NCBI RefSeq assembly: GCF_000826125.2
Contig: NZ_LN651372.1
Coordinates: forward strand, 169,386 to 220,594
Origin: Bhargavaea cecembensis
GTDB taxonomy: Bacteria > Bacillota > Bacilli > Bacillales_A > Planococcaceae
Length of the DNA stretch: 51,209 nucleotides
Direction of reading: 5' to 3'
Made by a program: the position numbers and the translations under genes. Of this stretch, positions 3,911-49,401 are shown piece after piece. Position 1 is the stretch's first letter. Each line of letters starts with the position of its first letter. The notes beneath the pieces were generated by a model that did not search any database, was not told the DNA's origin, and saw nothing but the letters and a program-made list of their open reading frames with translations.

Positions 3911-4008
3911 TGAATCGAACGATTATGCATTTGAATCGAACGATTGCGCCTTTGAATCGAACGATTAAGCGTTCGAATCGAACGATTGCGCCGCCGAATC
4001 GAACGATT
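3911..4008. repeat. 21-bp phased array A1 (5 units, core GAATCGAACGATT)
   Basis: Units start at 3911, 3932, 3953, 3974 and 3995, exactly 21 bp apart. The core (T/C)GAATCGAACGATT is identical in all five and contains the dyad AATCG-AA-CGATT. The seven-base spacers vary and loosely alternate between an AT-richer and a GC-richer type. The array fills the gap between the stop of the PstS-like gene (4029) and the start of nitronate monooxygenase (3880). Reading it in any frame gives a heptapeptide repeat because 21 is a multiple of three. Confidence 0.92.
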
Positions 4009-4028
4009 GCCAGACGACGGACGTTCTT

Positions 4029-5171
4029 TTACTTCCCAATCCCTACATACCCTGTCTTCTCCACGATCTCCTGCCCTTCCTCCGACAGCACCCAGTCGAT
4101 GAACGGTTCGACATTCGGATTGGCCGTGCCGGCGGTGATTGCATAGAGCTCGCGGGTGAGCGGGTAGTCGCCGGAGCGGATCGTGTCGACCGCGGGCCTC
4201 ACGCCGTCGACCGCGAGCAGCTTGATCTCATTGTTGCCGATCATCGATTCGGAATAATAACGGAACGTGTAGCCGATCGCCCCGCCGAAGTTCCGGTAGT
4301 CGGCGACGTCCTCGATCATGCCGCTCATGAGGTCTGCGGTATTCTCGGTCGGCGCAGCCATGATCGGCGTGTCGCCCATGAAGTCCTCGAGAGCGGTCTG
4401 GCTCCCGCTGTCGGGCGGCCGCTGATATGCGCGGATCTTCGTCCGCTTTCCGCCGGCTTCCTTCCAGTTCGTCAGTTCACCGGAATAAATGCCGCGCAGC
4501 TGATCCTGCGTCAGACCGTCCACCGGATTGTCCTCGTTCACGAAAAAGACGAATGCCTCCTTCCCGACCGGGGTGAGGACGAGTTCCTTCCCGGCTTCTT
4601 CCGCGCGTCGTCTTTGCGCTTCGGACGGGCCGAGTGCGAAGATGAGATCGGCTTCTCCGGCGATCAGCCTCCTGTACGCCTCTCCCGTGCGGTTCGACAT
4701 CACTTCGCTTTCGTACGGATCGTATTCCCTCTCCGGATATACCGCCTCGGCGAACGACGCGTACACCGGATACAGCGCCGTCGCCCCGTCGATCACCGGC
4801 AGGTCTTCGGTGATCTTGAATGAAGCGGGCTGATCGAGACTGACCGTCTTCGTCCCGGAAAACGGCGCGTAATCAAACAGATCCACTTCCTGCGCCGAGA
4901 CGACGGGCTTTGACTGCATATACCAAAGCGGAACCGAAGCGACGATCCCGGCGAGCAGAATCCCGGCCGGCACCCCGTAGAACACCTTCCGGCTCCTCAC
5001 GTTGAAAATCGCCATGCCGATGATCGTGATGAACCCGATCAGCAACCCGAGGAACGCCGGCGCCCAGTGGATGAGCCCGCCGAACACGATGTACAGGATC
5101 GGCGTAATCGAGAAAATCAAAATAAAAACCGTGATACCGACGAGCGACAGCACCTTCCCCGCCACCTTCAT
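4029..5171 (-). CDS. Membrane-anchored PstS-like substrate-binding protein
   Basis: A 380-residue protein with three predicted transmembrane helices at about residues 8-30, 36-58 and 68-88, followed by an extracytoplasmic phosphate-type periplasmic-binding (PBP-like) domain. Binding-domain marks are DGATALYPVYASFAEAVYP, GEADLIFALGPSE, the hinge GKEAFVFFVNEDNPVDGLT, GIYSGELTNWKEAGG and DSGSQTALEDFM. No lipobox is present and no pstCAB genes are nearby, unlike a normal PstS. The ATG at 5171 follows GAAAGGGGTGGGG. It may sense or bind phosphate or a similar oxyanion while tethered to the membrane; that role is inferred. Confidence 0.78.
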   Translation of the reverse strand: MKVAGKVLSLVGITVFILIFSITPILYIVFGGLIHWAPAFLGLLIGFITIIGMAIFNVRSRKVFYGVPAGILLAGIVASVPLWYMQSKPVVSAQEVDLFDYAPFSGTKTVSLDQPASFKITEDLPVIDGATALYPVYASFAEAVYPEREYDPYESEVMSNRTGEAYRRLIAGEADLIFALGPSEAQRRRAEEAGKELVLTPVGKEAFVFFVNEDNPVDGLTQDQLRGIYSGELTNWKEAGGKRTKIRAYQRPPDSGSQTALEDFMGDTPIMAAPTENTADLMSGMIEDVADYRNFGGAIGYTFRYYSESMIGNNEIKLLAVDGVRPAVDTIRSGDYPLTRELYAITAGTANPNVEPFIDWVLSEEGQEIVEKTGYVGIGK

Positions 5172-5316
5172 AACCCCACCCCTTTCCCCTATTCTAATGG
5201 AGAGACGCCCGTACAGGGAAGACGGTTTCAAAATTGCGGAAATACTTCCGGATGTTTAGCGCGGGGCCGGAGCGGAAACACTAGATATAGACAATTTCTG
5301 AAAGGAGTGCGGACAA

Positions 5317-5475
5317 ATGAATGAAAAGAAGCCTCCACACGAACGGATGACCGAGAAGAACAACGGCCTCTCCGACACACAGGAAGTGCTGTACCAGGAC
5401 GACTTCAACCGGGCCGATAAGGCTGCGGAGGATGAACAGTCGAACAGCCAATCCTCCGAGAAAGACAGCAAGTGA
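5317..5475 (+). CDS. Small acidic hypothetical protein (52 aa)
   Basis: A short ORF with a good ribosome site (AAAGGAGTG, eight bases before the ATG). The product is highly charged, has no membrane segment, and its last third is rich in Glu, Ser, Gln and Lys. It is likely intrinsically disordered. It stands 62 bp ahead of the SDR gene on the same strand. I do not recognise the family. Confidence 0.6.
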   Translation: MNEKKPPHERMTEKNNGLSDTQEVLYQDDFNRADKAAEDEQSNSQSSEKDSK

Positions 5476-5536
5476 CATACCCGCCGCCCCGCAGCCGGAC
5501 TGCGCGGGCGGTTTTTGGATGAGAGGAAGGATACCC

Positions 5537-6181
5537 ATGAATGTACTCGTCATCGGCGCTAACGGGCAGATCGGCCGTCAAGTCGTCGGTCTGCTGAAGG
5601 AAAGCAAAAATCATACTCCCCGGGCGATGGTGCGGAGCGAAGAACAGGCGGGGCGCTTTGAACGAGATGGGGTGGAAACGATTGTTGCCGACCTGGAGGG
5701 GAGCGTCGAGCAGCTCACGCGTGCGATGGTCGGCATCGACGCCGTCGTGTTTGCAGCAGGTTCCGGCGGACATACCGGTCCGGACAAGACGCTCCTGATC
5801 GACCTGGACGGTGCAGTGAAATCAATGGAAGCCGCCGAAAAAGGCGGGATCGGCCGGTTCATCCTCATCAGCGCCCTCCAGGCCAATCACCGGGAAAATT
5901 GGAACGAGACCATCCGGCCGTACTACGTTGCGAAGCATTATGCGGACCGGGCACTCACCGAAAGCAGCCTGGACTACACGATCATCCGGCCGGGCGGACT
6001 CATGAACACACCCGGCACCGGCCGGGTGACCGCAGCCGAAAACCTTGAGGGCGGATCGATCTCCCGCGAAGACGTCGCCCGGACGATCGTCGCCGCCCTC
6101 GATGAGGACAAAACGATCCGCCGCGCATTCGACCTCGTTGCCGGAGATACTTCCATCGCAGAGGCCTTGGAGAAGATATAA
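5537..6181 (+). CDS. NAD(P)-binding SDR-type oxidoreductase (YhfK-like)
   Basis: A 214-residue Rossmann-fold protein of the atypical short-chain dehydrogenase/NmrA-like group. The nucleotide-binding glycine motif GANGQIG lies at residues 7-13, followed by RQVVGLLKES. The strand VVFAAGSGGHTG and LISALQANHRENW match the middle of the fold, and IIRPGGLMNTPGTGRV near residues 149-164 is the family's substrate-pocket segment. Closest in my memory is Bacillus YhfK, but the substrate is not known. The ATG at 5537 follows GAGAGGAAGG. A strong hairpin ends the gene at 6190-6222. Confidence 0.85.
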   Translation: MNVLVIGANGQIGRQVVGLLKESKNHTPRAMVRSEEQAGRFERDGVETIVADLEGSVEQLTRAMVGIDAVVFAAGSGGHTGPDKTLLIDLDGAVKSMEAAEKGGIGRFILISALQANHRENWNETIRPYYVAKHYADRALTESSLDYTIIRPGGLMNTPGTGRVTAAENLEGGSISREDVARTIVAALDEDKTIRRAFDLVAGDTSIAEALEKI

Positions 6182-6189
6182 AGCAGAAA

Positions 6190-6222
6190 CGCCGCCGACC
6201 GGGAAGACCGGTCGGCGGCGTT
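6190..6222. terminator. Terminator between SDR gene and ywbE
   Basis: The stem CGCCGCCGACCGG pairs with CCGGTCGGCGGCG over a five-base loop and is followed by TTTGTTC. It lies between convergent genes and can serve both. Confidence 0.85.
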
Positions 6223-6225
6223 TGT

Positions 6226-6426
6226 TCATTCTTCGATGATTTCCTGCACACGGCCGACCTGGCCGTCCTCGAGCCGCACTTTGATGCCGTGCGGATGGGT
6301 CGGAGAATTTGTGAGGAGATCCTTCACGATTCCCTCGGTCAGCTTCCCGGTCCGCTGGTCTTTCTTCAGGACGATGTTCACGCGCTGTCCGGGTTTCACG
6401 TCCGCGCGGGTTTTTCCGTTTTTCAT
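6226..6426 (-). CDS. ywbE: YwbE family protein
   Basis: A 66-residue basic protein matching the conserved YwbE family of Bacillota, whose function is unknown. The family pattern is clear: an N-terminal lysine-rich start, PGQRVNIVLKKDQRTGKLTEG, KDLLTNSPTHPHGIKVRLE and a VGRVQEI end. The compact beta-rich sequence suggests a small nucleic-acid-binding or KOW-like fold, which is only an inference. A family D repeat array covers 6462-6559, directly upstream, where its promoter should be. Confidence 0.88.
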   Translation of the reverse strand: MKNGKTRADVKPGQRVNIVLKKDQRTGKLTEGIVKDLLTNSPTHPHGIKVRLEDGQVGRVQEIIEE

Positions 6427-6461
6427 TCGGGTTCAGCTCCTTTTTCCGGTGTTGCTTCTAT

Positions 6462-6559
6462 GAGTGTCGACTTTGTGGCTGCGGGTGTCAACTTTCAGCA
6501 GGTGAGTGTTAATTCCTCGGTGTCGAGTGTCAACTTTCCGCATGCGGGTGTCAACTTCC
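6462..6559. repeat. 21-bp phased array D (5 units, core GAGTGTCAACTTT)
   Basis: Units start at 6462, 6483, 6504, 6525 and 6546, exactly 21 bp apart. The core is G(A/G)GTGTCAACTTTC; the third unit is the most diverged (GAGTGTTAATTCC) and the others have at most two changes. It lies between ywbE (start 6426, minus strand) and the stop of the membrane-kinase gene (6657). No other copy of this family is in the window. Confidence 0.82.
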
Positions 6560-6656
6560 CCGGTTCCCCGTCAACCCAAAAAACAAAAGCCGCTCCGCGA
6601 TTGCAGAACGACTTGTTTGCGAGTGTTCCCTTCCCGCCCCAAAATAAACAGAATTA

Positions 6657-7916
6657 TTATTTAAATGTCAATTTCCCGTCTACCAGGTCCCGCACGAACA
6701 GTTCGAGCCGGCGCTTCACTTCGTCTTCGGTGAGCGTGGTGACGCCGAAGGGGATCCAGCGGCGGGCGATGCCGTCGGTACCGCTCCCTGCGAGCCACCC
6801 GTAGACCGCGCGGAGGTCCCAGTAGCGGCTGTACGAGAATGCTTCGCCGGCAGATTCGCGGTACGTCTTCAAAAATCGGTCTGCGACTTCTTCGCCGTGG
6901 ATGAGCGCGAGGGCGATGCGCATCCGGCCGATGTCGGTCTGGGGGATGCCGATGCCGGCGTGTTCCCAGTCGACGATGCCGCTCACATGGCCGTCGTCGA
7001 ACAGGATATTCGCGGGTTCGCAGTCGCCGTGGATGAACCGGAGCGGGGCGTCTTCGGCTTCGCGCGCGAAGAGGTCCGCGGCGCGCTGCCAGATGTCCCG
7101 GTCGATCGCCCATTCCGGCACGACGGGATCCGCCGGGACGGGATCCGTCAGCCGGGCGCCGGCCGGGTCGGCCTTGTGCACCCGGCCCATGACGTCCGCA
7201 ATCTCGTCCGCCCACAGGTCAAAGCTGAGCGGGTGGAGGAAAACCCCGCCGCCAATACGGCGCATGAGGAGGAGTGAACCGGGCTGTCCGTCCTCCTTCA
7301 CGTCTGCCGCCGCAAGTTCCGGCGCGGGCAGCCCCCGGTCCGCGGCGAACTGGAGGGCATCCGCCTCGCCGGCCGCTTTTTCCGCATGGACCGACGCCTT
7401 CACGACAAACGGCTCCTTTTCTTCATTCGTGAATTCATAGACACGGTGACCATCGCCCGAGGGGATTTCCTTGAAGGACTTCAGCTTCACTTCACCGACC
7501 CGGCCGGCGATCCAGTCGACCGTCCCCTTCGGCAGGTCGATGTCCGGGATGAGCGTCTTGCGCCAGAACACGAGGCCGAGCAGCGCGCCCGCCAGGACGA
7601 GGAAAAATCCGGGCCAGTTGATGACGGCTGCGCTGAGGACGAGCGTCAGCACGGCGACGCCAAATTTCCTTTTCCAGACGAGCATGATGCCGAGCAGGAT
7701 CATGAACACGCCGAAGATCGTCGGGAAGAGGAGCGAGTCGAGGCGGATCCAGATGCCGCGCGTCACTTCGACGAGCACCGGATCCCCCCGCCCGGGCAGG
7801 CAGAGCGCGCCGTACACCCGGAGCCAGTACATGTAATAGTAATAAACCGTGTAGATCCCGCCCGCGAGCACGAGCAGCCCGGGCAGGAAGTTGCGGATCG
7901 GCCGTGCAGCGGACAT
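6657..7916 (-). CDS. APH-family phosphotransferase with N-terminal membrane domain
   Basis: A 419-residue fusion. Residues 1-115 hold about four hydrophobic segments (around 10-30, 57-77, 80-93 and 94-112). Residues 130-419 form an aminoglycoside-phosphotransferase-type kinase domain: the catalytic loop is FIHGDCEPANILF with H296 and D298, and the metal-binding Asp is D316 in GIVDWEHAG. The VVKASVHAEKAAGEADAL segment supplies the Lys/Glu pair of the N-lobe. Soluble family members phosphorylate small alcohols such as choline, homoserine or antibiotics. GTG and ATG codons lie upstream, but GGAGGAGGAG stands six bases before the ATG at 7916. It follows the amidohydrolase by 17 bp and is probably cotranscribed. 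Its substrate is unknown. Confidence 0.78.
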   Translation of the reverse strand: MSAARPIRNFLPGLLVLAGGIYTVYYYYMYWLRVYGALCLPGRGDPVLVEVTRGIWIRLDSLLFPTIFGVFMILLGIMLVWKRKFGVAVLTLVLSAAVINWPGFFLVLAGALLGLVFWRKTLIPDIDLPKGTVDWIAGRVGEVKLKSFKEIPSGDGHRVYEFTNEEKEPFVVKASVHAEKAAGEADALQFAADRGLPAPELAAADVKEDGQPGSLLLMRRIGGGVFLHPLSFDLWADEIADVMGRVHKADPAGARLTDPVPADPVVPEWAIDRDIWQRAADLFAREAEDAPLRFIHGDCEPANILFDDGHVSGIVDWEHAGIGIPQTDIGRMRIALALIHGEEVADRFLKTYRESAGEAFSYSRYWDLRAVYGWLAGSGTDGIARRWIPFGVTTLTEDEVKRRLELFVRDLVDGKLTFK

Positions 7917-7933
7917 GGCCATCTCCTCCTCCA

Positions 7934-9508
7934 TCACTTCTTATACTGGACATCCCCGTCCACGACGGTCATCAAAACATTCGTCTCCATGATCTCGTCT
8001 TCCGGCAGACGCTCAAGGTCCCGGTCCACGATCGTGAAGTCGGCGAAATGCCCCGGGGCGATCAGGCCGCGGCGGTCTTCCTGGCCGAGCACGCGCGCCG
8101 CTTCCGTCGTGTACAGCCGGATGGCGTCGAAGTTCGACAGCTTTTCATCAGGCAGATAGCCGCCTTCCTTCGGGTCGTCCGGAAGCTTGCGCGCAACCGC
8201 GGTGTAAATGCCGAGGAACGGATCGGCCGAGTCGACCGGCGAGTCGGAGCCGCCGCCGCAGATGAATCCGCGGTCCATGAGCTTTTTCCAGGCATACGCC
8301 CAGCCGAGCCGGTCCGGGCCGAGGCGGTCTTCCGCCCACGGAAAGTCCGAGCCGACGAACACCGGCTGGATGTCGAGGATGACCGGCAGCTTCTCCATCC
8401 GTTCCACAAGGTCTTCGCGGAGCACGCATACGTGGATGAGCCGGTCGCGTTTGCCGGCCGGGCACGGATACGTTTCGATCAGGTCGAGCGCGAGCTCCGT
8501 CGCCGCGTCGCCAATCAAATGGACCGCGATCGCTTCGTCATGCCGGCGGGCCCGGCGGACGAGTTCCTCCGCTTCTTCGCGTGTGACGACAAACGTGCCG
8601 CGGTTGCCCGGATCGTCGGAATAGTCTTCCGACAGCGCCGCCGTCTTGCCGCCGAGCGCGCCGTCGATGAAGAACTTCATCGCGCCGGGTTCGGCCCACG
8701 GCTCGTTGTACGTCGCCCCGTCCTCGATCATCTGCTCGAACACGGTCGACCGGCGCAGCAGATGCGCCCGGAACTTCCGCCTGCCTTCGCCGAGAACCTC
8801 ATGGAACGCATTGAGCGGGTTCTGATAGCGGCCGAAATAGCCGAGGTCATCGGTGTGGCAGCCGGTGAGCCCCATCGACGTCAGATCGTCGACCGCGGTT
8901 TCAAGCGCTTTTTGGATCGATTCTGCAGTCGGCGCCGGTACGATCGATTCGACGAGGTCCTGTGCGTCTTCCTTCAGGAAACCGGTCGGCCGGCCTTCCG
9001 CGTCCCGCACGATCACCCCGCCTTCCGGGTCCGGCGTGTCTTTGGTGATGCCCGCGAGCCGGAGCGCCGCCGAGTTTGCCAGCAGCATATGCCGGCACGT
9101 CCGCTTCAGCATCATCGGCTTGTCCGTCACCGAATCGAGTTCGGCGAGCGTCGGCACGTGAGAGTCCGGGAACAGGTTCTCATCCCAGCCCTCGCCGAGC
9201 ACCCACTCGCTCTCCGGCACCTTCTCCGCCGCTTCCTTCATCACACGGAGCAGCTCATCCGACGAATGGACCGCCGAGAGATTGTTGCTCAAAAGCTGCT
9301 GGCCGTGCCCGATGATGTGCATATGCGTGTCGACGAATCCCGGATACACGAACGCCCCCCCGACATCGACTTCCCGGTCCGCCCGGCTTTTCAGCTCCTC
9401 GTATGTGCCGACCGCCCCGATCCGGCCGTCCTCGACGAGCACCGCCTCCACCATGTCACCCTCCGACTTCATCGTCCTGAACGAACCCCCGTGCCAGAGC
9501 GTCTTCAT
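7934..9508 (-). CDS. YtcJ-like metal-dependent amidohydrolase
   Basis: A 524-residue amidohydrolase-superfamily enzyme of the YtcJ/exoenzyme type. The first metal motif is in YPGFVDTHMHIIGHG (His-x-His near residues 62-64). Further marks are VLGEGWDENLFPD, the YNEPWAEPGAMKFFIDGALGG strand, IAVHLIGDAATELALDLIE and the late Asp in FICGGGSDSPVDSADPFLGIY. Family members hydrolyse cyclic amides or N-acyl bonds, but this substrate cannot be told. The ATG at 9508 is chosen because GGAGG stands seven bases upstream; an ATG six bases earlier would be too close. The membrane-kinase gene follows on the same strand. Confidence 0.85.
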   Translation of the reverse strand: MKTLWHGGSFRTMKSEGDMVEAVLVEDGRIGAVGTYEELKSRADREVDVGGAFVYPGFVDTHMHIIGHGQQLLSNNLSAVHSSDELLRVMKEAAEKVPESEWVLGEGWDENLFPDSHVPTLAELDSVTDKPMMLKRTCRHMLLANSAALRLAGITKDTPDPEGGVIVRDAEGRPTGFLKEDAQDLVESIVPAPTAESIQKALETAVDDLTSMGLTGCHTDDLGYFGRYQNPLNAFHEVLGEGRRKFRAHLLRRSTVFEQMIEDGATYNEPWAEPGAMKFFIDGALGGKTAALSEDYSDDPGNRGTFVVTREEAEELVRRARRHDEAIAVHLIGDAATELALDLIETYPCPAGKRDRLIHVCVLREDLVERMEKLPVILDIQPVFVGSDFPWAEDRLGPDRLGWAYAWKKLMDRGFICGGGSDSPVDSADPFLGIYTAVARKLPDDPKEGGYLPDEKLSNFDAIRLYTTEAARVLGQEDRRGLIAPGHFADFTIVDRDLERLPEDEIMETNVLMTVVDGDVQYKK

Positions 9509-9613
9509 GCCCATTCCTCCCAAACTGCGATTTTCTTTTAGTGTATCACTTTTCTGAACAGGCGGGCGTGAAGGTTTTAGGGCGGATTTGAGGAAAGTGC
9601 GGGAGGCTTTGAC

Positions 9614-9713
9614 GGATAAAGATAACGCTCGTGCGGATAAACGCAACGCTTGGCCGGATTAAGATAACGCTACCTCCGATAAAAGCAACGCTTCGCCGGA
9701 TAAAGATAACGCT
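9614..9713. repeat. 21-bp phased array B1 (5 units, GATAAAGATAACGCT type)
   Basis: Units start at 9614, 9635, 9656, 9677 and 9698. Two variants alternate: the GATAACGCT type at units 1, 3 and 5, and the GCAACGCT type at units 2 and 4, giving a 42-bp superperiod. The array lies between the amidohydrolase start (9508) and the rhomboid stop (9770), all in a minus-strand tandem. Confidence 0.92.
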
Positions 9714-9769
9714 TCGCCAAAAAAGACGGGATTGTGTCCTCGTTAACGGACGCAACCTCGTCTCTTCTT

Positions 9770-10393
9770 TCAATCATATGTACTTCTCCTCCGCCTGCGG
9801 GCCGGCAGCCTATCCAAGACACCGAACAGAACACCGCCGACAAAACCGCCGACATGGGCAGAGATGCTGATCGCCAGCCCGTTCCGGAAAATGAGCCAAT
9901 GGACGAAAAGGTTGACCAACAAAATGGCTTCCATTGAAATCTTATAGCGCTTCGAAAGATCGTTCGGATACAAAACAGCCCATGTGCTGTACACGCCCAG
10001 CATCCCAAAAACAATCCCGGAGGCACCGATCACACTGGAAAAATCCGAGCTCACGATCACGGCAGTGCTGCTCGTGATGACCGACAACAGAACAAGGCCG
10101 GCCATCTTGGTGCTCCCATAAGCGGTCTCTATTTGCTTCGACATCCACGTGATCAGAACGATATTGAACAAATAATGCGCAAAGCTCCGATGGAACAAAG
10201 AAAATGTGAAGGGAGTCCAATATTTCCCGTCGAGCAGGTTCTCCCTGGAGATGCCGAATGCCTGATGGAGGGTGTCGAGGCTTGCCGGCAACAGCAGGGC
10301 AGGCAAAGAGGCCGCAGTGATCAGGAGAATCAATATGTACCGGGTTGGATACGGTTTAACGCCTTCCATTAAAACTTTCCTTTCCGTTGTCAT
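9770..10393 (-). CDS. Rhomboid family intramembrane serine protease
   Basis: A 207-residue polytopic membrane protease of the rhomboid family, which cuts transmembrane segments of other proteins. The catalytic serine is S125 in VIGASGIVFG and the histidine is H180 in ISAHVGGFVGG. The LFHRSFAHYLFNI segment at residues 67-79 carries the conserved His and Asn of the oxyanion region. About six membrane helices are present and the tail is arginine-rich. The ATG at 10393 overlaps the upstream stop as ATGA, which suggests translational coupling; an internal ATG at 10369 with GGAAAGGAAAG before it is an alternative start. Confidence 0.9.
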   Translation of the reverse strand: MTTERKVLMEGVKPYPTRYILILLITAASLPALLLPASLDTLHQAFGISRENLLDGKYWTPFTFSLFHRSFAHYLFNIVLITWMSKQIETAYGSTKMAGLVLLSVITSSTAVIVSSDFSSVIGASGIVFGMLGVYSTWAVLYPNDLSKRYKISMEAILLVNLFVHWLIFRNGLAISISAHVGGFVGGVLFGVLDRLPARRRRRSTYD

Positions 10394-11118
10394 TGCAGAG
10401 AACTTTCCAATTGGGAACAGCCCAGACTTTCTGTTTTTTCAGAGCCAAAGATCACGTACTGGTATTTCCGTTCAGGCTTTCCTTCTTCCTGTGTTGCGCC
10501 GTTCGCCCCGAAGCGCACCTTCTCTTGCGGCAGTTCTTTGACTCTGTTGCCGTTTTCGTCCACGTAAAAGGCCTTCGTCCGGTACGGACCCGAGCCATGC
10601 TCGCTGGCCCATCCAAGTTCCATCGGGGAGGAAGTGTCGATGATGCCGCTCTCGGGAACGGTGTAGACAATTTCGTTATCCGTGAATTTCAGAGGCGGAG
10701 CGCCCTTTACGTCATAGCGGACGACCACACATCCTTCAAATCCGTCCGGCAGCAGATAAGTCTCGTCCGCCCCTTTCTTGCCGGACACGATGCCGATGAA
10801 AATGAACCCTGCAAGGAACAAGGAGAGAACCACCATCCCGATCCGGCTCGTCCAGCGCGCCGAGCGTTCGTCCCACAGCAGCAGGAAAAAGAGATAGATC
10901 AACTCCGCCGTCCCCGCCACCGCCCAGAACGACATCCAATTCTCCAAAAACGGCAGCCGGGTTATCAGATAAACAAACAGAAAGGTACCCGCAACGCCCC
11001 CCGCATATCCGACAGCTTTCGGGACCGGAAACCGCTGGATCAAGCGGTTGGCCAGAAACCCGCCGAATGCACCGGCCAGCACAACGAACACAAACACATA
11101 AAGCATGGATAAAAACAC
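10390..11118 (-). CDS. Membrane protein with C-terminal DUF6843-like domain
   Basis: A 242-residue protein with four transmembrane helices in residues 3-120 and an extracytoplasmic C-terminal part that resembles DUF6843: YLLPDGFEGCVVVRYDVKGAPP, then EIVYTVPESGIIDTSS and a GWAS segment. The GTG at 11118 follows a perfect AGGAGGTG, so I prefer it over the ATG at 11106. The stop overlaps the rhomboid start by four bases. Function is unknown; the domain assignment is from pattern memory. Confidence 0.7.
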   Translation of the reverse strand: MFLSMLYVFVFVVLAGAFGGFLANRLIQRFPVPKAVGYAGGVAGTFLFVYLITRLPFLENWMSFWAVAGTAELIYLFFLLLWDERSARWTSRIGMVVLSLFLAGFIFIGIVSGKKGADETYLLPDGFEGCVVVRYDVKGAPPLKFTDNEIVYTVPESGIIDTSSPMELGWASEHGSGPYRTKAFYVDENGNRVKELPQEKVRFGANGATQEEGKPERKYQYVIFGSEKTESLGCSQLESSLQ

Positions 11119-11154
11119 CGGATCTGCACCTCCTGGAAGCGTGGAATACGGTTG

Positions 11155-11190
11155 AAAAACGCCCTTGAGAACATGGGAATCTCAAGAGCG
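11155..11190 (-). terminator. Minus-strand terminator
   Basis: The arms GCCCTTGAGA and TCTCAAGAGC form a stem just downstream of the 11200 gene. On the minus strand it is followed by GTTTTTC. Confidence 0.65.
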
Positions 11191-11199
11191 CCGGACTGT

Positions 11200-11547
11200 T
11201 CATCGTATGGACATCGGCGGGTTCTTCGGCCGCATTGCAAACTTTGCCAGCAGGAAGATGATGAGGCTGATCCACGCACCGAGTGCCGTTCCGCGGTTGG
11301 ACACATACGTCTCCGTAACCATGCCGGTCCCCGTCAAGACATTCATGGCAAAAAAGAAAATGAATGCGCCCATCGACGCAGCGACCAGCCGATTTTTGCG
11401 GAGCAGCTTTTGATCGGGCGCTTGCGTGCGCTCGAGCATACTCATGTACCGGATCTGCCGCCGGAGTCCGACAAGCAGACCGATAATCAAACCTGAAAAG
11501 GCAAGAATACCAAGGACATCACTCACCTCACCCATCCCTCGCTCCAT
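11200..11547 (-). CDS. Hypothetical three-helix membrane protein
   Basis: An unrecognised 115-residue protein with hydrophobic segments at about residues 10-28, 57-72 and 84-105, and a basic C-terminus. The start is uncertain: the ATG at 11547 has a weak GGAAG site, and a later in-frame ATG (GEVSD) is possible. Its own hairpin terminator follows. Nothing points to a function. Confidence 0.6.
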   Translation of the reverse strand: MERGMGEVSDVLGILAFSGLIIGLLVGLRRQIRYMSMLERTQAPDQKLLRKNRLVAASMGAFIFFFAMNVLTGTGMVTETYVSNRGTALGAWISLIIFLLAKFAMRPKNPPMSIR

Positions 11548-11571
11548 TTTTCTTCCATTATGATGGATCGC

Positions 11572-13262: not shown

Positions 13263-13402
13263 CGAATCGAACGATTACGCATTTGAATCGAACGATTAGC
13301 CGCTCGAATCGAACGATTACGCGTTTGAATCGAACGATTAGCCGCTCGAATCGAACGATTACGTGTTTGAATCGAACGATTCCCCGCTTGAATCGAACGA
13401 TT
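13263..13402. repeat. 21-bp phased array A2 (7 units, core GAATCGAACGATT)
   Basis: Units start at 13263, 13284, 13305, 13326, 13347, 13368 and 13389, a strict 21-bp step. All seven cores are identical. The spacers alternate between an ACGCGTT-like and an AGCCGCT-like type, so the real period is a 42-bp dimer. The array is in the 316-bp divergent gap between the TlpA-like gene and the PspC gene, 107 and 69 bp from their start codons. Nothing else is seen in that gap apart from presumed promoters. Confidence 0.94.
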
Positions 13403-16234: not shown

Positions 16235-16242
16235 CCGAATAC

Positions 16243-16272
16243 GAGTGGTTCTACCACTTTAAAAAACTAAGG
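16243..16272 (+). promoter_or_regulatory. preQ1-I-like element between queF and queC (possibly degenerate)
   Basis: GTGG-TTCTA-CCAC is followed by TTTAAAAAACTAAGG. The GGTTCTA start and AAAAAACTAA tail match the B. subtilis preQ1-I aptamer, but about six loop bases that normally hold the ligand pocket and the P2 partner are missing. A terminator-like hairpin follows. It may be a decayed or non-standard second aptamer. Confidence 0.4.
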
Positions 16273-16305
16273 AAAGCAGCCCGTTTCCTCGTGCTGTTTT
16301 TCTTT
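16273..16305 (+). terminator. Terminator-like hairpin before queC
   Basis: AAAGCAGC pairs with GCTGTTTT (one G-U) and a T-rich run follows. An alternative GGAAA/TTTCC pairing overlaps it, so it could act as an attenuator between queF and queC. Confidence 0.5.
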
Positions 16306-17584: not shown

Positions 17585-17595
17585 CCGCTTGCCCG

Positions 17596-17625
17596 CCGGC
17601 ATCTCGCAAGTGGATGCCGGTTTGC
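17596..17625 (+). terminator. Terminator of the queuosine unit
   Basis: CCGGCATC pairs with GATGCCGG and is followed by TTTGCTT. The first unit of array C1 starts inside this T-rich tail. Confidence 0.75.
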
Positions 17626-17721
17626 TTAACATTCAGCAACCCTTTCTTAACATTCAGCCACTCTTTCTTAACATTCAGGCGGCCTTTCTTAACATTCAGC
17701 CGCTCTTTCTTAACATTCGGC
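17625..17721. repeat. 21-bp phased array C1 (5 units, core CTTAACATTCAGC)
   Basis: Units start at 17625, 17646, 17667, 17688 and 17709. The core CTTAACATTCAGC is exact in three units and has one change in two. Spacers are pyrimidine-rich and end in CTTT. The array begins in the T-run of the VUT terminator and ends at the edge of a GNAT gene remnant. The wider gap 17585-17960 holds this array, the remnant and a terminator. Confidence 0.9.
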
Positions 17722-20646: not shown

Positions 20647-20694
20647 AGAGACGAGAATGCACCCGGTAACCAGGCTGCATTCTCGTCTCTTTTA
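20647..20694 (+). terminator. Terminator of iadA-nhaC
   Basis: A 15-bp stem, AGAGACGAGAATGCA with TGCATTCTCGTCTCT, is followed by TTTT. Confidence 0.9.
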
Positions 20695-20721: not shown

Positions 20722-20821
20722 AGCGTTGCTTTTATCGGAGCGAGCGTTATCTTTATCCGGCGAAGCGTTGCTTTTATCGGTGCGAGCGTTATCTTTATCC
20801 GGCGAAGCGTTGCTTTTATCG
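20722..20821. repeat. 21-bp phased array B2 (5 units, reverse orientation)
   Basis: Units start at 20722, 20743, 20764, 20785 and 20806. On the plus strand they read AGCGTTGCTTTTATC and AGCGTTATCTTTATC alternately, with the GCAAC-type at units 1, 3 and 5. It is the reverse complement orientation of arrays B1 and B3. It lies in the convergent gap between nhaC and the flavin reductase, just after the nhaC terminator. Confidence 0.93.
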
Positions 20822-37930: not shown

Positions 37931-37931
37931 C

Positions 37932-41273: not shown

Positions 41274-41303
41274 TCAAGACCGTATGAAGAAAGGATGAGT
41301 TCC

Positions 41304-43721: not shown

Positions 43722-43726
43722 AATGC

Positions 43727-43764
43727 AAAAGCCGCAGGAGCTCACGCCTCCTGCGGCTTTTTTC
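43727..43764. terminator. Bidirectional terminator after copA
   Basis: AAAAGCCGCAGGA pairs with TCCTGCGGCTTTTTT between convergent genes. Confidence 0.9.
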
Positions 43765-44807
43765 TATTCCATATTGATGAAAGGCTTGTGATAATCCAGC
43801 ATGCCCTTCACCCGGGTCACGTTCGTTCGCTCCCCCTCCTGCAGGAAACGGCCGAAGTTGAAGATGACGGGCATTTGATTGCCGCCGATTGCAAACAGGG
43901 CCTTCCGCTCGGCGGGCAGGTAGGCGGATGTGTGGATCGTCCCGGCCGACGCACCGTACTTCTCGGCGAAGATTCCTTCCTTGCGGCCGTTCAACAGCCG
44001 GTAGGCCGCGGACGCATCCAGTCCGTCTCCCCGGTCAGTCAATTCATCCCGCCTTCTCACCGAGTCTTCCGTCCTGTAGCGGTTTTCTTCGGCAAGGATC
44101 TCAAAATGGTTCGTACTGACAGACGCTCTTCTTTCGGTCACTTTCCTCGGGGAGGCTTCCACGATGAACGTGTCGCCGGCCGGGTCCGTCAGCATATAGT
44201 TGAACGAAGTCCGGTGAGGGATTTCCTTCAGCAGCGCGATCGCTTCCCGGACATCCGCACAGGTCTCCAGGACCATCCGTCCGATCATGTTGCAGATGAA
44301 CCCATCCCCCGAACGGACCCGGTTCACAAAGTTGTATCCCATCGCCAGGCCCTTTTCGTTCATCCCATCGGTGCGGCCCGTAATCTGCATGGTCGGCCCC
44401 AAGGTCGCATAGCCTCCGTCGGTCGGCTGGTAGATGACGTAGCGCCCTTCATAAAATGCCGGATCGCTGTCATAGTTGCGGATCATGAAGTCCGGCCCCG
44501 TCAGAATCGAACAGCCGCTTTTGGCGGTTTCCACATAGTAGCCGCCGAATTCCACCAACGCCTCCTCCATCGTCCAGCCGAGCGAATCGGCCAGTCCCTG
44601 CAACTCGTCGAGCATATGCGGGATGAACCTGGAGAACAGATCGACCGCTTCGGATTGATTGATATTGAAATGGCGTTTTCTCGTGGCCGCCCATTGCGCT
44701 GCCCGCCTGGATAAGATGGGGGACTCTTTCAGCCGTTCCCCCTGCATATAGCCGAAGTCGTAGTGGCTCCCTTTGAATTGGATGACGTCGCTGTAATAAG
44801 CGTTCAT
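43764..44807 (-). CDS. C45-family autoproteolytic acyltransferase/hydrolase
   Basis: A 347-residue Ntn-hydrolase of the peptidase C45 type (acyl-CoA:6-aminopenicillanate acyltransferase-like, related to choloylglycine hydrolases). KGSHYDFGYMQGERLK at residues 12-27 is the family entry motif, and the likely self-processing nucleophile is the Cys in YVETAKSGCSILTGPDFMIRNYD (about residue 98). ITGRTDGMNEKGLAMGYNFV and SFNYMLTDPAGDTFIVEASP follow as expected. No signal peptide is seen, so it is cytoplasmic. GAGGAG precedes the ATG. The acyl substrate is unknown. Confidence 0.86.
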   Translation of the reverse strand: MNAYYSDVIQFKGSHYDFGYMQGERLKESPILSRRAAQWAATRKRHFNINQSEAVDLFSRFIPHMLDELQGLADSLGWTMEEALVEFGGYYVETAKSGCSILTGPDFMIRNYDSDPAFYEGRYVIYQPTDGGYATLGPTMQITGRTDGMNEKGLAMGYNFVNRVRSGDGFICNMIGRMVLETCADVREAIALLKEIPHRTSFNYMLTDPAGDTFIVEASPRKVTERRASVSTNHFEILAEENRYRTEDSVRRRDELTDRGDGLDASAAYRLLNGRKEGIFAEKYGASAGTIHTSAYLPAERKALFAIGGNQMPVIFNFGRFLQEGERTNVTRVKGMLDYHKPFINME

Positions 44808-44990
44808 GCGCTCAGACTCCTCGTATGGTCAGTCTTCGGCCCGGATACCGGGTCTTTCATCACGTTACCACCCGGCCAGCCTGGACTCCAGTAAATGGAT
44901 TGTATATAGCTCCTGCCGGCCCTGTTTTGGCGCCGTCCGGGCGGTCGTGTTACAATGGAACCGACTGAATTTTCTGTGGAGGGGATCATC

Positions 44991-45431
44991 ATGCGTTTGA
45001 CTGTTTACCTGGCCGGCGAGATCCATTCGTCCTGGCGCGATGAAATTCGCGAGAAAGTTGCTGCACTGAAGCTGCCGATCGACTTTGTCGGTCCCCAGGA
45101 GGACCATGACCGTTCAGACAACATCGGCGAGGAAATCATCGGCGAACAGCCGGGTCCGGCCTACAAGGACTGGGCCGCGTCGAGCTTCAACAATCTGCGC
45201 ACCGAGGTGCTCATGCAGAAGGCCGACCTCGTCATCGCCCTGTTCGGCGAGAAATACAAGCAGTGGAACACCGCGATGGACGCCTCGGCAGCCGTTGCGC
45301 TCGGCAAGCCGCTCATCCTGATCCACCCGGAAGCGCACACCCACGCGCTGAAAGAGCTGTCGCGCAAGGCGAGCGCCACCGTCGAGACGTGCGACCAGGC
45401 GATCAAGGCACTGAAGTATATCTTTGATTGA
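44991..45431 (+). CDS. ytoQ: YtoQ family protein
   Basis: A 146-residue protein of the YtoQ family, with a flavodoxin/nucleoside-2-deoxyribosyltransferase-like fold. The first strand LTVYLAGEIHSSWRDEI, then FVGPQEDHDRSDNIGEEI and DLVIALFGEKYKQWNTAMDASAAVALGKPLILIHPE are diagnostic. GTGGAGGGG precedes the ATG at 44991. The family has no established reaction; deoxyribosyltransferase-like residues (the YLAG start and the MDASAA stretch) hint at nucleoside chemistry. Confidence 0.88.
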   Translation: MRLTVYLAGEIHSSWRDEIREKVAALKLPIDFVGPQEDHDRSDNIGEEIIGEQPGPAYKDWAASSFNNLRTEVLMQKADLVIALFGEKYKQWNTAMDASAAVALGKPLILIHPEAHTHALKELSRKASATVETCDQAIKALKYIFD

Positions 45432-45444
45432 AAGGCGGGATTCG

Positions 45445-45558
45445 GTGAATGAGGAACGGAAGGCGTCCCGCTTCTCTCTATTGATATATAGCGGAGTCGG
45501 AGCGGCGATCGGGGCGATCATCGGGATCATCGCCTACAACCAAAATTGGCTCGGCTGA
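45445..45558 (+). CDS. Very small membrane protein (37 aa)
   Basis: A short ORF with a GTG start 6-7 bases after AAAGGCGGG. The product has a basic N-terminus and one glycine-rich membrane helix (GVGAAIGAIIGIIAY), like a YtxH-type or holin-like miniprotein. It lies 13 bp after ytoQ, and its stop overlaps the proposed GNAT start by 13 bases. No family is recognised. Confidence 0.5.
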   Translation: MNEERKASRFSLLIYSGVGAAIGAIIGIIAYNQNWLG

Positions 45559-46055
45559 ACGTGGAAGTGCGGCAGGCGGTCCCGGAAGACGCGGACGGAC
45601 TCGCGGAAGCCGTGGAGAGCGCGGAAGCCTCGGGGATGATGCTGTTTGCACCTGGCGAGCGCGGGATGACTGCGGACGGAGCGGCGGTGATGATCAACCG
45701 GCTGCGGGAGGACCCGGCGTCCACTCTGTTGGTCGCTCATGGCGGCGGGCGAGTTGCCGGCTACCTCATCGCACGGGGAGATGACACATTGAGGACCCGC
45801 CACCGGGCGTATGTCGTGGTCGGCGTGCACGAAGACTGTCGCGGAAGGGGCATCGGCCGTGCACTGTTCGATGCGCTCGGCGAATGGGCCGCCGCCCGCG
45901 GACTCCGTCGGCTCGAACTCACCGTGCGGACCGACAACGAGGGCGGTGTCGCGCTCTATAAGCGGGCAGGCTTCGAGGTCGAAGGCATCAAGCGGGACTC
46001 CCTGCTCGTTGCCGGCCGGTATGTGGATGAGTATTACATGGCGAAGTTGATTTGA
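45546..46055 (+). CDS. GNAT family N-acetyltransferase
   Basis: A 169-residue GNAT enzyme: VEVRQAVPEDADGLAEAVESAEASGMM at the start, YVVVGVHEDCRGRGIGRALFDALGEWA with motif A (CRGRGIG, about residues 98-104), then LELTVRTDNEGGVALYKRAGFEVEGIKRDSL. The last segment is typical of the group that includes putative phosphinothricin-type acetyltransferases. The TTG at 45546 overlaps the small membrane ORF; a GTG at 45561 is an alternative start. The ribosome site is weak, which fits translational coupling. Confidence 0.86.
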   Translation: MARLNVEVRQAVPEDADGLAEAVESAEASGMMLFAPGERGMTADGAAVMINRLREDPASTLLVAHGGGRVAGYLIARGDDTLRTRHRAYVVVGVHEDCRGRGIGRALFDALGEWAAARGLRRLELTVRTDNEGGVALYKRAGFEVEGIKRDSLLVAGRYVDEYYMAKLI

Positions 46056-46075
46056 TGACAGGAAGAAGCCGTCCG

Positions 46076-46096
46076 GCGTGCGCCGGACGGCTTTAA
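46076..46096. terminator. Terminator after GNAT gene
   Basis: AAGCCGTCCGGC pairs with GCCGGACGGCTTT over a tight loop. Confidence 0.82.
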
Positions 46097-46193
46097 TTCA
46101 TTCGCAATGAAAAGCGGCGAGCTCGTGTTGGCTGTTGCCCTTCCCCCTGCCCTCATGTACACTATTGAAAAAAATAACAGCGGGCAGGTGAAG

Positions 46194-46739
46194 ATGATGC
46201 TGTATAAAAAAGCGGGCAACAAAACGGAATTCTGGGAAGTATGGAAGAATGGCCGGACACTCATGATCCACCACGGGACCGTCGGGTCAGACGGCGTGAC
46301 GGAAGAGGTGAAACCCGGATCGGTCCAGAGCTCCGGCAGACTGATGAATCAATTGACCGAAGAGCAAATGAGAAACGGATTTGAACTTGTCGACGAAGAC
46401 GGACTGCATGAATTCGTCGTCCAGTTCAGTTACGAGGACGGCGACATGCAGGCCGCATTGGACAAGCGTCAGATTGCCGAAGACGAGTTGGATGAACGTT
46501 TGAACCGGACAGGGATCGGCTACTGCGACGGCGGCGATATCGGCAGCGGCACTGCGAATACTTTCTTCTATGTCATCGACGTGGACAAAGCACTACAAGT
46601 CGTCACCGACGAACTCGCCAAGCATGGACTTCTCGAAGAAGCGGCAATCGCCTGTGCCACGCCGGACGGAGATGACTATCTGTCCCTCCATCCGGCGGGT
46701 GCCGAATTCCGGCTGATGGATATTGAGGATGAGGAATGA
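46194..46739 (+). CDS. Hypothetical protein with WGR-like N-terminus
   Basis: A 181-residue acidic protein. Residues 8-40 (KTEFWEVWKNGRTLMIHHGTVGSDG) resemble the WGR domain of poly-ADP-ribose polymerases and MolR-like proteins, though the WGR triad itself reads HHG. The rest has a IGYCDGGDIGSGTANTFFYVIDVD segment found in uncharacterised proteins. Two ATGs lie side by side at 46194 and 46197 behind CAGGTGA; the longer frame to 46107 lacks a site. Function is unknown. Confidence 0.68.
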   Translation: MMLYKKAGNKTEFWEVWKNGRTLMIHHGTVGSDGVTEEVKPGSVQSSGRLMNQLTEEQMRNGFELVDEDGLHEFVVQFSYEDGDMQAALDKRQIAEDELDERLNRTGIGYCDGGDIGSGTANTFFYVIDVDKALQVVTDELAKHGLLEEAAIACATPDGDDYLSLHPAGAEFRLMDIEDEE

Positions 46740-46756
46740 GTGCCGGACATTCCCGG

Positions 46757-47245
46757 TTAAATAAAATCCTTCTTTTCCAGTGAATAGATGATCTGCTCCG
46801 CCCCAAATCTCATGACCCTTCCCGCTTCCTCCATTCCGAGACGAGTGAGAAGCCGTCGGGAGGCGGTGTTGGCGGCCTGTGTTTCGGCAAGCAACCGGTC
46901 GAGCCCCTTTTCATCGAATGCATGCCGGATCACTGTCCTCACCGCTTCGGTTCCGAATCCTTCACCCCAGAATTCAGGCAGGATCTGAAAGGAAATTTCT
47001 GTTGCTTCGCCGTCGTGGTGAGGGTCGAGCGAAATCATTCCGATGAATGCGTCATGTCTCCGTTGTCGGATCACCCAGGATGGGCCGGGATTCTTGAGCA
47101 TCTCATCGAAAGCCCGCTCTACTTCCTCCGGAGGTCTGGGCCCGCCGAGATGGGCACGGACTTTTTCACTTCTATAAAGGGACTGGACATCCGGCAGGTC
47201 ACCGGGAACCGGTGGCCTAAGGACGCATCGTACGGTTTCTAACAT
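46757..47245 (-). CDS. GNAT acetyltransferase, RimJ/RimL type
   Basis: A 162-residue GNAT: ETVRCVLRPPVPGDLPDVQSLY at the start, ISFQILPEFWGEGFGTEAVRTVIRHAF with the CoA loop WGEGFG (about residues 94-99), and LLAETQAANTASRRLLTRLGMEEAG at the end. AGGGGA precedes the ATG. Its 5' end overlaps the 3' end of the HIT gene by 29 bases, so the two are coupled. Confidence 0.88.
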   Translation of the reverse strand: MLETVRCVLRPPVPGDLPDVQSLYRSEKVRAHLGGPRPPEEVERAFDEMLKNPGPSWVIRQRRHDAFIGMISLDPHHDGEATEISFQILPEFWGEGFGTEAVRTVIRHAFDEKGLDRLLAETQAANTASRRLLTRLGMEEAGRVMRFGAEQIIYSLEKKDFI

Positions 47246-47666
47246 CCGGTGTCTCCCCTCCGGCCAGCGCGGCCCTCAGCTTTTCTTCCAAAGAATCGAA
47301 GTCGACCGACGATATGTCGATGTCCGGCTCCACCCAGCCGAAACCGTCGTTTTTGAAACGCGGAATGATGTGCATGTGGTAGTGTTCCACGTCTTTGAAA
47401 ATCCCGTTGTTTTGCATGACGGTGATGCCGTCCGTGCCGAGTTGCCCTTCGATTGCCCGGGCGATGTTCTGGGCCGCCCGGATCGCGGCTGCCAGGCTCT
47501 CCGGATCGACGTCGGTGAATTCAGCCGTATGCACTTTTGGAACGACGAGCACATGGCCCGGATTGATCGGATATCTGTCGAGGAAGCAGCAGACGTGTTC
47601 ATCCTCATAAAGGATGTGTGCCGGTGCTTGGCCGGAGATGATCTTGCAGAAAATACAGGCGGTCAA
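47217..47666 (-). CDS. HIT family nucleotide hydrolase/transferase
   Basis: A 149-residue histidine-triad protein that acts on nucleotide phosphoramidates or dinucleoside polyphosphates. The zinc-type CIFCKIISGQAPAHILYEDE opens the chain with two Cys residues, PGHVLVVPKVH follows near 40, and the catalytic triad is HYHMHIIPRF near residues 97-106. The TTG start at 47666 follows AGGGGG. It heads a two-gene unit with a GNAT. Array B3 lies 101 bp upstream of its start. Confidence 0.94.
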   Translation of the reverse strand: MTACIFCKIISGQAPAHILYEDEHVCCFLDRYPINPGHVLVVPKVHTAEFTDVDPESLAAAIRAAQNIARAIEGQLGTDGITVMQNNGIFKDVEHYHMHIIPRFKNDGFGWVEPDIDISSVDFDSLEEKLRAALAGGETPDVRNRTMRP

Positions 47667-47767
47667 TGGCGATTCCCCCTCTGTCGCTGTTCAGACAATT
47701 CTACCACACGGCAAGGTCCGCCGACCGATTCCTGTAAAAGCGCCGCATTTCGGCGTGATGGCCTCGC

Positions 47768-47867
47768 GAATAAAAGCAACGCTTCTGCGGATATAGATAA
47801 CGCTCACTCCGATAAAAGCAACGCTTCGCCGGATAAAGATAACGCTTCTGCGGATAAAAGCAACGCT
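47768..47867. repeat. 21-bp phased array B3 (5 units)
   Basis: Units start at 47768, 47789, 47810, 47831 and 47852. GCAACGCT-type units (1, 3, 5) alternate with GATAACGCT-type units (2, 4). It occupies the middle of the 305-bp divergent gap between the HIT gene and the membrane protein at 47972, about 100 bp from each start codon. The rest of the gap shows no other feature. Confidence 0.92.
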
Positions 47868-47971
47868 TTATGTCGAAGGAAGATTCACTCGGCAAAAGCG
47901 GCGCGGTCGTTGACGATTCGTTTGTCGTCATGCCCTGCGGGAATAGGTGAAGAAAGAGCGGGGGTGGAGGC

Positions 47972-48391
47972 GTGCGCGATGCGGCGAAGCTGGCGGCGAT
48001 CGGATTGATTGCGGGGACGGTGCTGATCGTCGTGCTGAAACTGGTGGAGTTGCTGACGGGGAATCCGGCGTATGTGCTGCTGTTCAACTTTGATTACATT
48101 CCGGTTGTGAACAGGTGGCGGCCGGTGTGGCTGATCGGGCTGCTGTTCCACTACGGAATCTGCGTCTTTAGCGCGATCATTTTATTTTATTTCCTCCGGC
48201 CGTTCGGGCGGGAGCATTGGATCTCGCCGTATGTGGCGGTTTACACGATCGGCTCGGCGCTGTTGTTTTCCCTGACGGCGCTGTCGGACCAGCCGCCCGA
48301 GTTTTCGGACGGGGTGGCTTGGGTGTACTGGACGCTCGCGCATGCCGTGTTCGGCTGGGTCGTCGGCTGGCTGATCCGGAAGTGGGTTTGA
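47972..48391 (+). CDS. Hypothetical four-helix membrane protein (paralogue 1)
   Basis: A 139-residue protein with helices at about 7-27, 55-75, 83-103 and 117-135. The loop YVLLFNFDYIPVVNRWRP at residues 34-51 is shared in altered form with the gene at 48820 (YTLLMNIDYVPVLKEYRF). The GTG start follows GGGGGTGGAGG. I do not recognise the family beyond its likeness to the neighbour. Confidence 0.72.
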   Translation: MRDAAKLAAIGLIAGTVLIVVLKLVELLTGNPAYVLLFNFDYIPVVNRWRPVWLIGLLFHYGICVFSAIILFYFLRPFGREHWISPYVAVYTIGSALLFSLTALSDQPPEFSDGVAWVYWTLAHAVFGWVVGWLIRKWV

Positions 48392-48471
48392 GGCTTATTT
48401 GCAAAAGTTTGACCGGGATCAAGGTTCCCGGCCGGCCGCGGTGGGACAATGGTCTCAAGGAGGCGGTCGAC

Positions 48472-48648
48472 ATGAACGGCCACGAAATGAGCGTACAAGC
48501 TGAAAAAATGCAGTGTGAATGCGTGGTGCAGGTGGACCGGATGATCAGCGAAGGGCTTGGCGGCGGGTTCATTCTCAGCGAGTATGACGGCGGACGCCTG
48601 GACGATCCGGTGTCCCGCGAGCGGGAGGTGGTGCCGGCCGTCTCATGA
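48472..48648 (+). CDS. Small hypothetical protein (58 aa)
   Basis: A short ORF with a strong ribosome site (AAGGAGG, nine bases before the ATG). The product is acidic with two Cys residues in a CxC pair (MQCECVVQVD) and ends in a charged tail. No known family comes to mind. It lies between two paralogous membrane protein genes. Confidence 0.55.
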   Translation: MNGHEMSVQAEKMQCECVVQVDRMISEGLGGGFILSEYDGGRLDDPVSREREVVPAVS

Positions 48649-48715
48649 CGGCGGACCGCCTCGCCCGATCTTGCATGTGCAACCCAACAACTTCACATCC
48701 GAACATTCCACTCAT

Positions 48716-48749
48716 CGCAGCGCCGGTCTACCGGAGCTGCGGCTTTTTT
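48716..48749 (+). terminator. Terminator after the 58-aa ORF
   Basis: GCAGC-G-CCGGT pairs with ACCGG-A-GCTGC over a two-base loop, followed by GGCTTTTTT. Confidence 0.78.
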
Positions 48750-48819
48750 GCATTGGGCTACCAGGCGCCGTGGTTCTCGTGTAGGATGGAATCAAATGGA
48801 GCCAGAGGAGCGCGAAGCG

Positions 48820-49275
48820 ATGGGAAACCGGCGGAACAAATGGATTGGACGACCGGCCGCGGCGGGACTGGCCGCCGGCGTTTTCCTCGGCGCGCTGCTG
48901 TATGCGGCCGAGAAGGCGACAGGGCTGAAGGTGTATACGCTCTTGATGAACATCGACTACGTGCCGGTGCTGAAGGAATACCGCTTCCCCGCTCCGGTCG
49001 AGTTCTCGTTCCACCTGATCGTCTCGGTCGTCCTTGCCGTCATCCTCTTCCGGATCGTCCTCCGCTTCCGGTGGACGGGCCGGCGGATGGCGGGATGGGT
49101 CACCGCGCTCAACGGGATCGTCGGTCTCGGTATCTGGCCGGTAACCGCGCTGTCGGAACGGACGCCTGCGCTTGGCGATGCGGCGGCGCTCGGCGTGTGG
49201 CTCGCAGCGCACCTGCTGTATGGCGGGGTGCTGGCCTGGATGTTCGGAAGGATACTGAGGAAAGAAGAAAGTTAA
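48820..49275 (+). CDS. Hypothetical four-helix membrane protein (paralogue 2)
   Basis: A 151-residue protein with a basic start and helices at about 12-30, 60-82, 88-108 and 122-143. It shares with the gene at 47972 the loop LMNIDYVPVLKEYRF, the overall helix order and the end pattern WLAAHLLYGGVLAWMFGRI. GAGGAGCGCGAAGCG precedes the ATG at 48820. The two probably arose by duplication. Function is unknown. Confidence 0.72.
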   Translation: MGNRRNKWIGRPAAAGLAAGVFLGALLYAAEKATGLKVYTLLMNIDYVPVLKEYRFPAPVEFSFHLIVSVVLAVILFRIVLRFRWTGRRMAGWVTALNGIVGLGIWPVTALSERTPALGDAAALGVWLAAHLLYGGVLAWMFGRILRKEES

Positions 49276-49304
49276 ATACCGGAATGCCGTCCACCCGATT
49301 CTTT

Positions 49305-49401
49305 CTTAACATTCACGACTGTTTGCTTAACATTCAGCGGCTCTTTCTTAACATTCAGCCCGTTTTGCTTAACATTCAGCTCCCCTTGCTTAACATTCAC
49401 C
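49305..49401. repeat. 21-bp phased array C2 (5 units, core CTTAACATTCAGC)
   Basis: Units start at 49305, 49326, 49347, 49368 and 49389. Three cores are exact CTTAACATTCAGC; the first and last read CTTAACATTCAC. The array is in the convergent gap between the membrane protein at 48820 and psuG, same orientation as array C1. Confidence 0.9.

Follow-up and report, generated by a model that had tools for sequence, protein, structure and literature searches.

The stretch considered here, 51,209 nucleotides of Bhargavaea cecembensis (the window; C2:169386-220594, on contig C2 of a genome of 3.156 Mb in four contigs), carries eight arrays of short direct repeats, in each of which a core recurs every 21 bp. 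A preliminary description of this DNA had reported the eight arrays and their spacing, and all of them are indeed present, whether one looks with Tandem Repeats Finder (TRF) or by direct reading. The arrays, which fall into the families A to D, and the hairpins beside them are as follows.

3912..4008, plus strand: family A array, five units of GAATCGAACGATT at a 21-bp step, flanked by a nitronate monooxygenase-like gene and a PBP-like gene
6462..6559, plus strand: family D array, five units of the GAGTGTCAACTTTC type at a 21-bp step, one of them degenerate
9615..9713, plus strand: family B array, five units GATAAA(GAT or NGC)AACGCT of two alternating types
9725..9764, minus strand: hairpin adjoining the 9615 array, by alignment related to the hairpin found with other B arrays but diverged from it, with no match to the strict pattern
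13264..13402, plus strand: family A array, seven units with alternating spacers
17594..17621, plus strand: stem-loop CCGGCATC/GATGCCGG, read from the sequence, followed directly by TTT and the next array
17625..17720, plus strand: family C array, five units of CTTAACATTC at a 21-bp step
20648..20689, plus strand: terminator-type hairpin GAGACGAGAATGC...GCATTCTCGTCTC, which the genome holds six times in exact form
20722..20820, minus strand: family B array, five units of two alternating types, with the hairpin pattern 33 bp away
47769..47867, plus strand: family B array, five units of two alternating types
49305..49400, plus strand: family C array, five units of CTTAACATTC at a 21-bp step

TRF returns a period of 21 for all eight arrays, with indels of 0-10% in seven and 14% in the family D array at 6462, and in six of them it also scores a period of 42 bp. 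The unit step read directly is 21 bp throughout, and a scan of lags 15-30 over the window finds six seeds at lag 21 and none at any other. Called genes flank every array and overlap none, although mechanical open reading frames do run over some of them (for example 48645-49475, which is without a Pfam match). A PreQ1 riboswitch at 16239-16276 is the sole Rfam match in the window at gathering score.

The preliminary description had proposed that copies across the genome should prefer 21-bp spacing and intergenic positions, and both expectations were borne out. Our sample of the genome consisted of the window and 40 stretches of 20 kb chosen for holding A-D arrays, 851 kb in all, so that array densities taken from it are biased upwards. 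An array detector found 178 arrays at period 21, eight at 20 and none at 19, 22 or 23, and 170 of the 178 lie outside called genes, as do all eight in the window. The plain lag spectrum has 180 entries at 21, beside smaller numbers at 15 (30), 18 (12), 20 (18), 40 (10), 42 (33) and 50 (7). Across the whole genome, core pairs spaced by 21 bp number 63 for A, 100 for B, 63 for C and 38 for D, and the reversed-pattern control for each of these searches gave no match. Tandem arrays of other kinds, with periods of 50, 160 and 70 bp, were seen in the sampled stretches L053 (13374-14890), L056 (1-741) and L052 (16214-16909).

The 178 arrays were reduced to 163 by removing those within genes and some copies due to scaffold overlap, and then to 152 by removing identical unit lists; for chromosome placement further scaffold copies were removed by hand. 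Such copies are a feature of this assembly, which holds more than 30 direct duplicates, exact and about 1 kb long, many split by a single N (for example L032 6688-8420 and L066 12955-15151). These are probably unmerged scaffold overlaps and may also account for the contamination value of 6.7%. Identical arrays 0.9-1.4 kb apart had raised the idea of gene duplication linked to arrays, which we dropped, since exact duplicates occur with and without arrays.

The diversity of the arrays is greater than had been thought. Where four families had been proposed, average-linkage clustering of the 163 arrays gives 15 multi-member clusters, 12 of them with at least four arrays, and three singletons (single linkage merged 143 of the 163 into one and was abandoned). 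One family outside A-D, with the core GAGTGTNATCG, has 215 pair matches genome-wide and none in its control. Within one family a single core recurs at between 14 and 29 loci. Nor was it confirmed that the cores are unrelated: once oriented alike, many begin by eye with GA(A/G)T, and cores of the C type have close variants in congeners. The claim that unit number is never even also fails, for among arrays with at least three units 89 are odd and 63 even. Over 153 arrays of 12 families, five units is the commonest number (62 arrays), followed by four (45), three (17), six (16) and seven (8), with one array each at 2, 8, 9, 10 and 11. Family A is mostly odd (12/14), while F7 (10/11) and F9 (7/11) are mostly even.

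Alternate units are more alike than adjacent ones, by a mean excess of 0.59 bp that none of 1000 permutations of unit order reaches; this is the same signal as the 42-bp period that TRF scores in the window. Taken singly, however, 72 arrays show the excess and 63 the reverse (sign test p 0.49), hence the signal must be driven by a subset, clearest in F1 (B), F9, F11 and F6 (A).

Within related copies the cores are better conserved than what lies between them. Pairwise identity among four related B copies is 0.97 in the core, 0.81 in the stem of the accompanying hairpin, 0.67 in the spacer, 0.56 in the linker, 0.51 in the loop and 0.46-0.50 in the outer flanks; in six related D copies it is 0.89 in the core and 0.68 in the spacer. 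Orthologous arrays offer few changes between sister species for a comparison of core and spacer rates, and their unit number differs between sisters. Between loci, co-linear homology of spacers stands out in D, where z is 4.1 for the mean and 5.7 for the top tenth of pairs; it is weaker in B (1.5/2.7), A (2.4/0.1) and F8 (2.1/1.1), and below a z of 2 in the remaining families tested. At several loci D arrays adjoin F2 arrays within shared stretches of about 225 bp. In families B and D some arrays have been copied whole.

Some arrays keep company with a hairpin. The pattern AGACGAGAN{10,30}TCTCGTCT occurs at six sites in the genome, and all six lie at most 45 bp from a B array: four hairpins stand 32-34 bp from one array end, one (on contig C4) stands 16 bp from the same end, and the sixth (C2:530670) stands 43 bp from the opposite end. 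Their stems vary among copies by paired changes. The remaining B arrays are without the exact hairpin, three of them having by eye a diverged relative of it. A hairpin and array of family C are likewise common to C3:112674 and C3:116530, and an F11 array with its terminator to C2:152505 and C3:562948. A search of the open-licence literature returned no report of such hairpin-array composites, or of these arrays in Bhargavaea.

The arrays lie beyond the 3' ends of genes and are seldom found in divergent regions. A first gene caller missed genes, so the contexts given here rest on a second one; counts of context and strand on the 163 arrays still include some scaffold copies. These counts are 53 convergent, 13 divergent and 95 codirectional, with two at stretch ends, and for the 152 arrays they are 51, 11 and 89. 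Among the available intergenic regions, counting those of 30 bp or more, 108 are convergent, 113 divergent and 336 codirectional, and against these the preference for convergent over divergent regions has p = 5e-6. Among the 95 codirectional arrays, 66 are closer to the stop of the upstream gene. In most families the arrays lie on either strand relative to such genes, a point in favour of action at the level of double-stranded DNA. On the chromosome, with dnaA at C2:567 kb, a terminus placed by skew near C3:1.48 Mb and an inferred contig order, the origin-proximal half holds 58 of the 76 placed A-D arrays (p = 5e-6) and 23 of the 32 F2 arrays matched with zero mismatches, one likely scaffold copy included (p 0.02).

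Comparison with relatives adds a further element, namely turnover. We searched seven congeners: Edaphobacillus lindanitolerans, Bhargavaea cecembensis DSE10 and T14, B. ginsengi, B. beijingensis, B. massiliensis and Bhargavaea sp. CC-171006. In 40 syntenic kb of each, all seven carry 21-bp arrays, with other cores. The window and the congener stretches together give 51 seeds at lag 21; lags 12 (56), 15 (11) and 18 (3) also occur, and lags 16, 17, 19, 20 and 22 to 41 have none. Family A was found in none of the seven with up to two mismatches allowed. Behind the orthologue of the gene at 7934-9508, five of the seven have arrays with four different cores, one being common to B. beijingensis and B. 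massiliensis; by eye, DSE10 has a single degenerate unit there and Edaphobacillus nothing. The C superfamily spans the genus, and its preferred variants differ: TTAACATTC accounts for 75 units and TTAACACTC for eight in our own sequence (a sample biased to C arrays), against four and 13 in four arrays of Edaphobacillus, while in the one array of B. ginsengi all six units are GTAACACTC. In the whole genome of B. beijingensis, 13 of 18 zero-mismatch pairs are TTAACACTC twice. Inverted back-to-back pairs of arrays, TTTCGTCATTC with its reverse complement, were noticed in B. massiliensis (L121 to L126) and B. beijingensis (the L134 region).

Outside the genus a 21-bp array of any kind appears in two of 19 sampled stretches and one of six named loci; the seven congener loci hold 25. 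Locus L112, which has one such array, is titled Arthrobacter beigongshangensis, has a GC content of 0.42 and encodes a protein 61% identical to that of the window, close to the 62% seen at the Sporosarcina locus, so that the record is probably mistitled.

In our opinion, held with about as much confidence as doubt, the arrays are helically phased docking sites for protein, with an organising or insulating role and a specificity that evolves fast. Each core of 12-15 bp would be the site for one subunit of a DNA-binding protein, and cores repeated every two turns of the helix would align usually three to seven subunits on one face, where they could bind cooperatively. Each core family would have a cognate specificity of its own, with the preferred core shifting between species. 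At least some arrays were copied as a whole into new intergenic sites, sometimes along with the adjoining terminator hairpin, after which the spacers would drift while selection would keep the cores. The resulting nucleoprotein patches beyond gene ends, more numerous in the origin-proximal half, would most likely organise or insulate the chromosome. The two-turn spacing, the mixed strand and the constraint on cores, taken together, point to protein on DNA, and not to RNA or slippage. The 21-bp spacing, exclusive among neighbouring lags and with empty reversed controls, supports the docking of protein, and so do the preference for convergent over divergent regions, the excess in the origin-proximal half and the finding that seven congeners build 21-bp arrays from other cores. 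The preliminary description had already suggested that the repeats offer a protein-binding surface of several specificities; this fits the spacing, the core constraint, the mixed strand and the congeners, and it stands as a suggestion.

Several observations weigh against it. No cognate binding protein was identified, and the multiple families of one genome would require multiple specificities. Conservation of cores is partly a matter of ascertainment, given that arrays are detected through their cores. Strand is biased in F7 (9/9 the same way) and F10 (6/7 opposed). Taken by itself, family A shows no significant bias to the origin (9/14, p 0.42), and the A-D families were first spotted in an origin-proximal window. 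Finally, when 26 of our own arrays were sought at bracketed sites in Edaphobacillus, 14 could be placed and 12 of these have no array there; presence thus often differs, and no single site seems to be kept for long.

Such presence and absence among relatives is what one would expect of selfish repeats: short, non-autonomous, spread by an enzyme with or without a hairpin, tolerated only where intergenic DNA lies 3' of genes, and of no use to the host. We take this to be the most serious rival, although an unlikely one. The whole-array copying in D and B speaks for it, and so does the small number of arrays in divergent regions. Yet after copying, the cores persist longer than spacers and linker, and the sites inspected against Edaphobacillus, or between B. 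massiliensis and B. beijingensis, gave no definable insertion junction, clean empty site or target duplication; entire intergenic regions differ in the former comparison, and most differing sites are too diverged in the latter. Mobilisation of the REP/RAYT kind was set aside, because the Y1 transposase domain (Y1_Tnp, PF01797) was found in none of the eight genomes by a search whose control was positive in five of 14 named genomes. Replication slippage, creating and extending arrays without any function, would account for the likeness of alternate units, as if growth were by unit pairs, and for the varying unit number of sister species. It leaves unexplained a single exact period across many sequences and eight genomes, the recurrence of one core at so many loci, and cores that outlast spacers, and we consider it very improbable.

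The arrays might instead act in back-up termination or insulation alone, with bound proteins stopping RNA polymerase that has passed an intrinsic terminator, especially between convergent genes. The tie of one hairpin to B arrays at all six of its sites and the mixed strand agree with this, as does the presence of a terminator-like hairpin aimed at the array within 150 bp in 91 of the 152 arrays and in 44 of the 51 between convergent genes, raw counts that have no chance control. But the hairpin finder was lenient (1012 sites, 583 of them intergenic), 75 of the 152 arrays have a hairpin aimed away from them, and intergenic DNA behind genes carries terminators anyway. Termination alone would also leave the excess in the origin half unexplained; hence this seems to us distinctly less probable than selfish spread. 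Least credible, together with slippage, is a function as RNA, in which transcripts of the arrays would serve as small RNAs or as sponges for protein, a role suggested in PMC8161180 for a 52-nt class. The family A array of the window does fold better than most shuffles (z -2.30; 3/200 as good), but that of family C shows little folding (z -1.65; 13/200), and Rfam matches no array in the window. The folds are modest, and the mixed strand of most families disfavours a role as RNA.

A bolder version of protein docking may be offered as speculation. Paralogous DNA-binding proteins, each cooperative on its own arrays, might shift specificity fast, so that species have rewritten their cores at dozens of sites; this strikes us as doubtful. 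Equally doubtful, though attractive, is the thought that such paralogues would form a bacterial counterpart of satellite/centromere-protein co-evolution, played out in the origin-proximal nucleoid. The genus makes the question of function testable, since each genome holds many arrays, the cores differ among eight species and there is a composite with one specific hairpin, and a comparison of core-intact with core-scrambled arrays is a simple bait design.

It remains to place the arrays among known systems. REP/REPIN elements, which are associated with RAYT transposases, are short dispersed intergenic repeats, some with hairpins, and they are palindromic pairs, whereas the arrays here are direct phased repeats. 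BOX elements of Streptococcus pneumoniae are short interspersed modular intergenic elements in which one module is repeated; they are not known to have a two-turn period, and we set them apart by architecture. Plasmid replication iterons, in which a replication initiator at an origin binds a small number of direct repeats, each some 20 bp long, along one face of the helix, could serve as a working model for the arrays, which differ in consisting of hundreds of chromosomal units and in not being a replication origin. CRISPR arrays have unique spacers of about repeat length and come with cas genes; the spacers of A-D, at just 6-9 bp, do not fit (cas genes were not searched for).

The nearest relative is a published class, contrary to the earlier opinion that no named element has this form. 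Subirana and Messeguer (PMC8161180) describe, in the sections available, tandem repeats of 20-21 nt from Bacillus and other bacteria that are constant in size, variable in sequence, species-specific and non-coding, with short conserved signals. The likeness extends to the period, the few units, the several families per genome and some related 40-nt repeats. Our arrays match every feature tested: a constant unit of 20-21 nt (178 at 21, eight at 20); at least four units in 135 of 153 arrays, the other 18 having two or three; several sequence families in one genome (the 15 multi-member clusters among 163 arrays); a non-coding position (170/178 outside called genes); and species specificity (A in none of seven congeners, other cores there), although C-type cores are shared as variants. 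The preliminary description had held that a known repeat family with a settled explanation would overturn it; the form does match this class, for which the same sections give no settled explanation. They suggest a protein that polymerises, a stabilising effect on the nucleoid, or small RNAs, the function of the class not being established. The terminator-hairpin composite, the 3' placement, the constraint on core against spacer and the origin bias are not reported in those sections, and the composite and the core-against-spacer pattern are additions to the class as published there. The arrays of Bhargavaea are, then, a rich addition to an already known and unexplained kind. If a cognate protein were found, it would represent a new sequence-specific system for organising or insulating the chromosome, possibly common to the other bacterial groups, Cyanobacteria and Actinobacteria among them, in which PMC8161180 records repeats of 20-21 nt.

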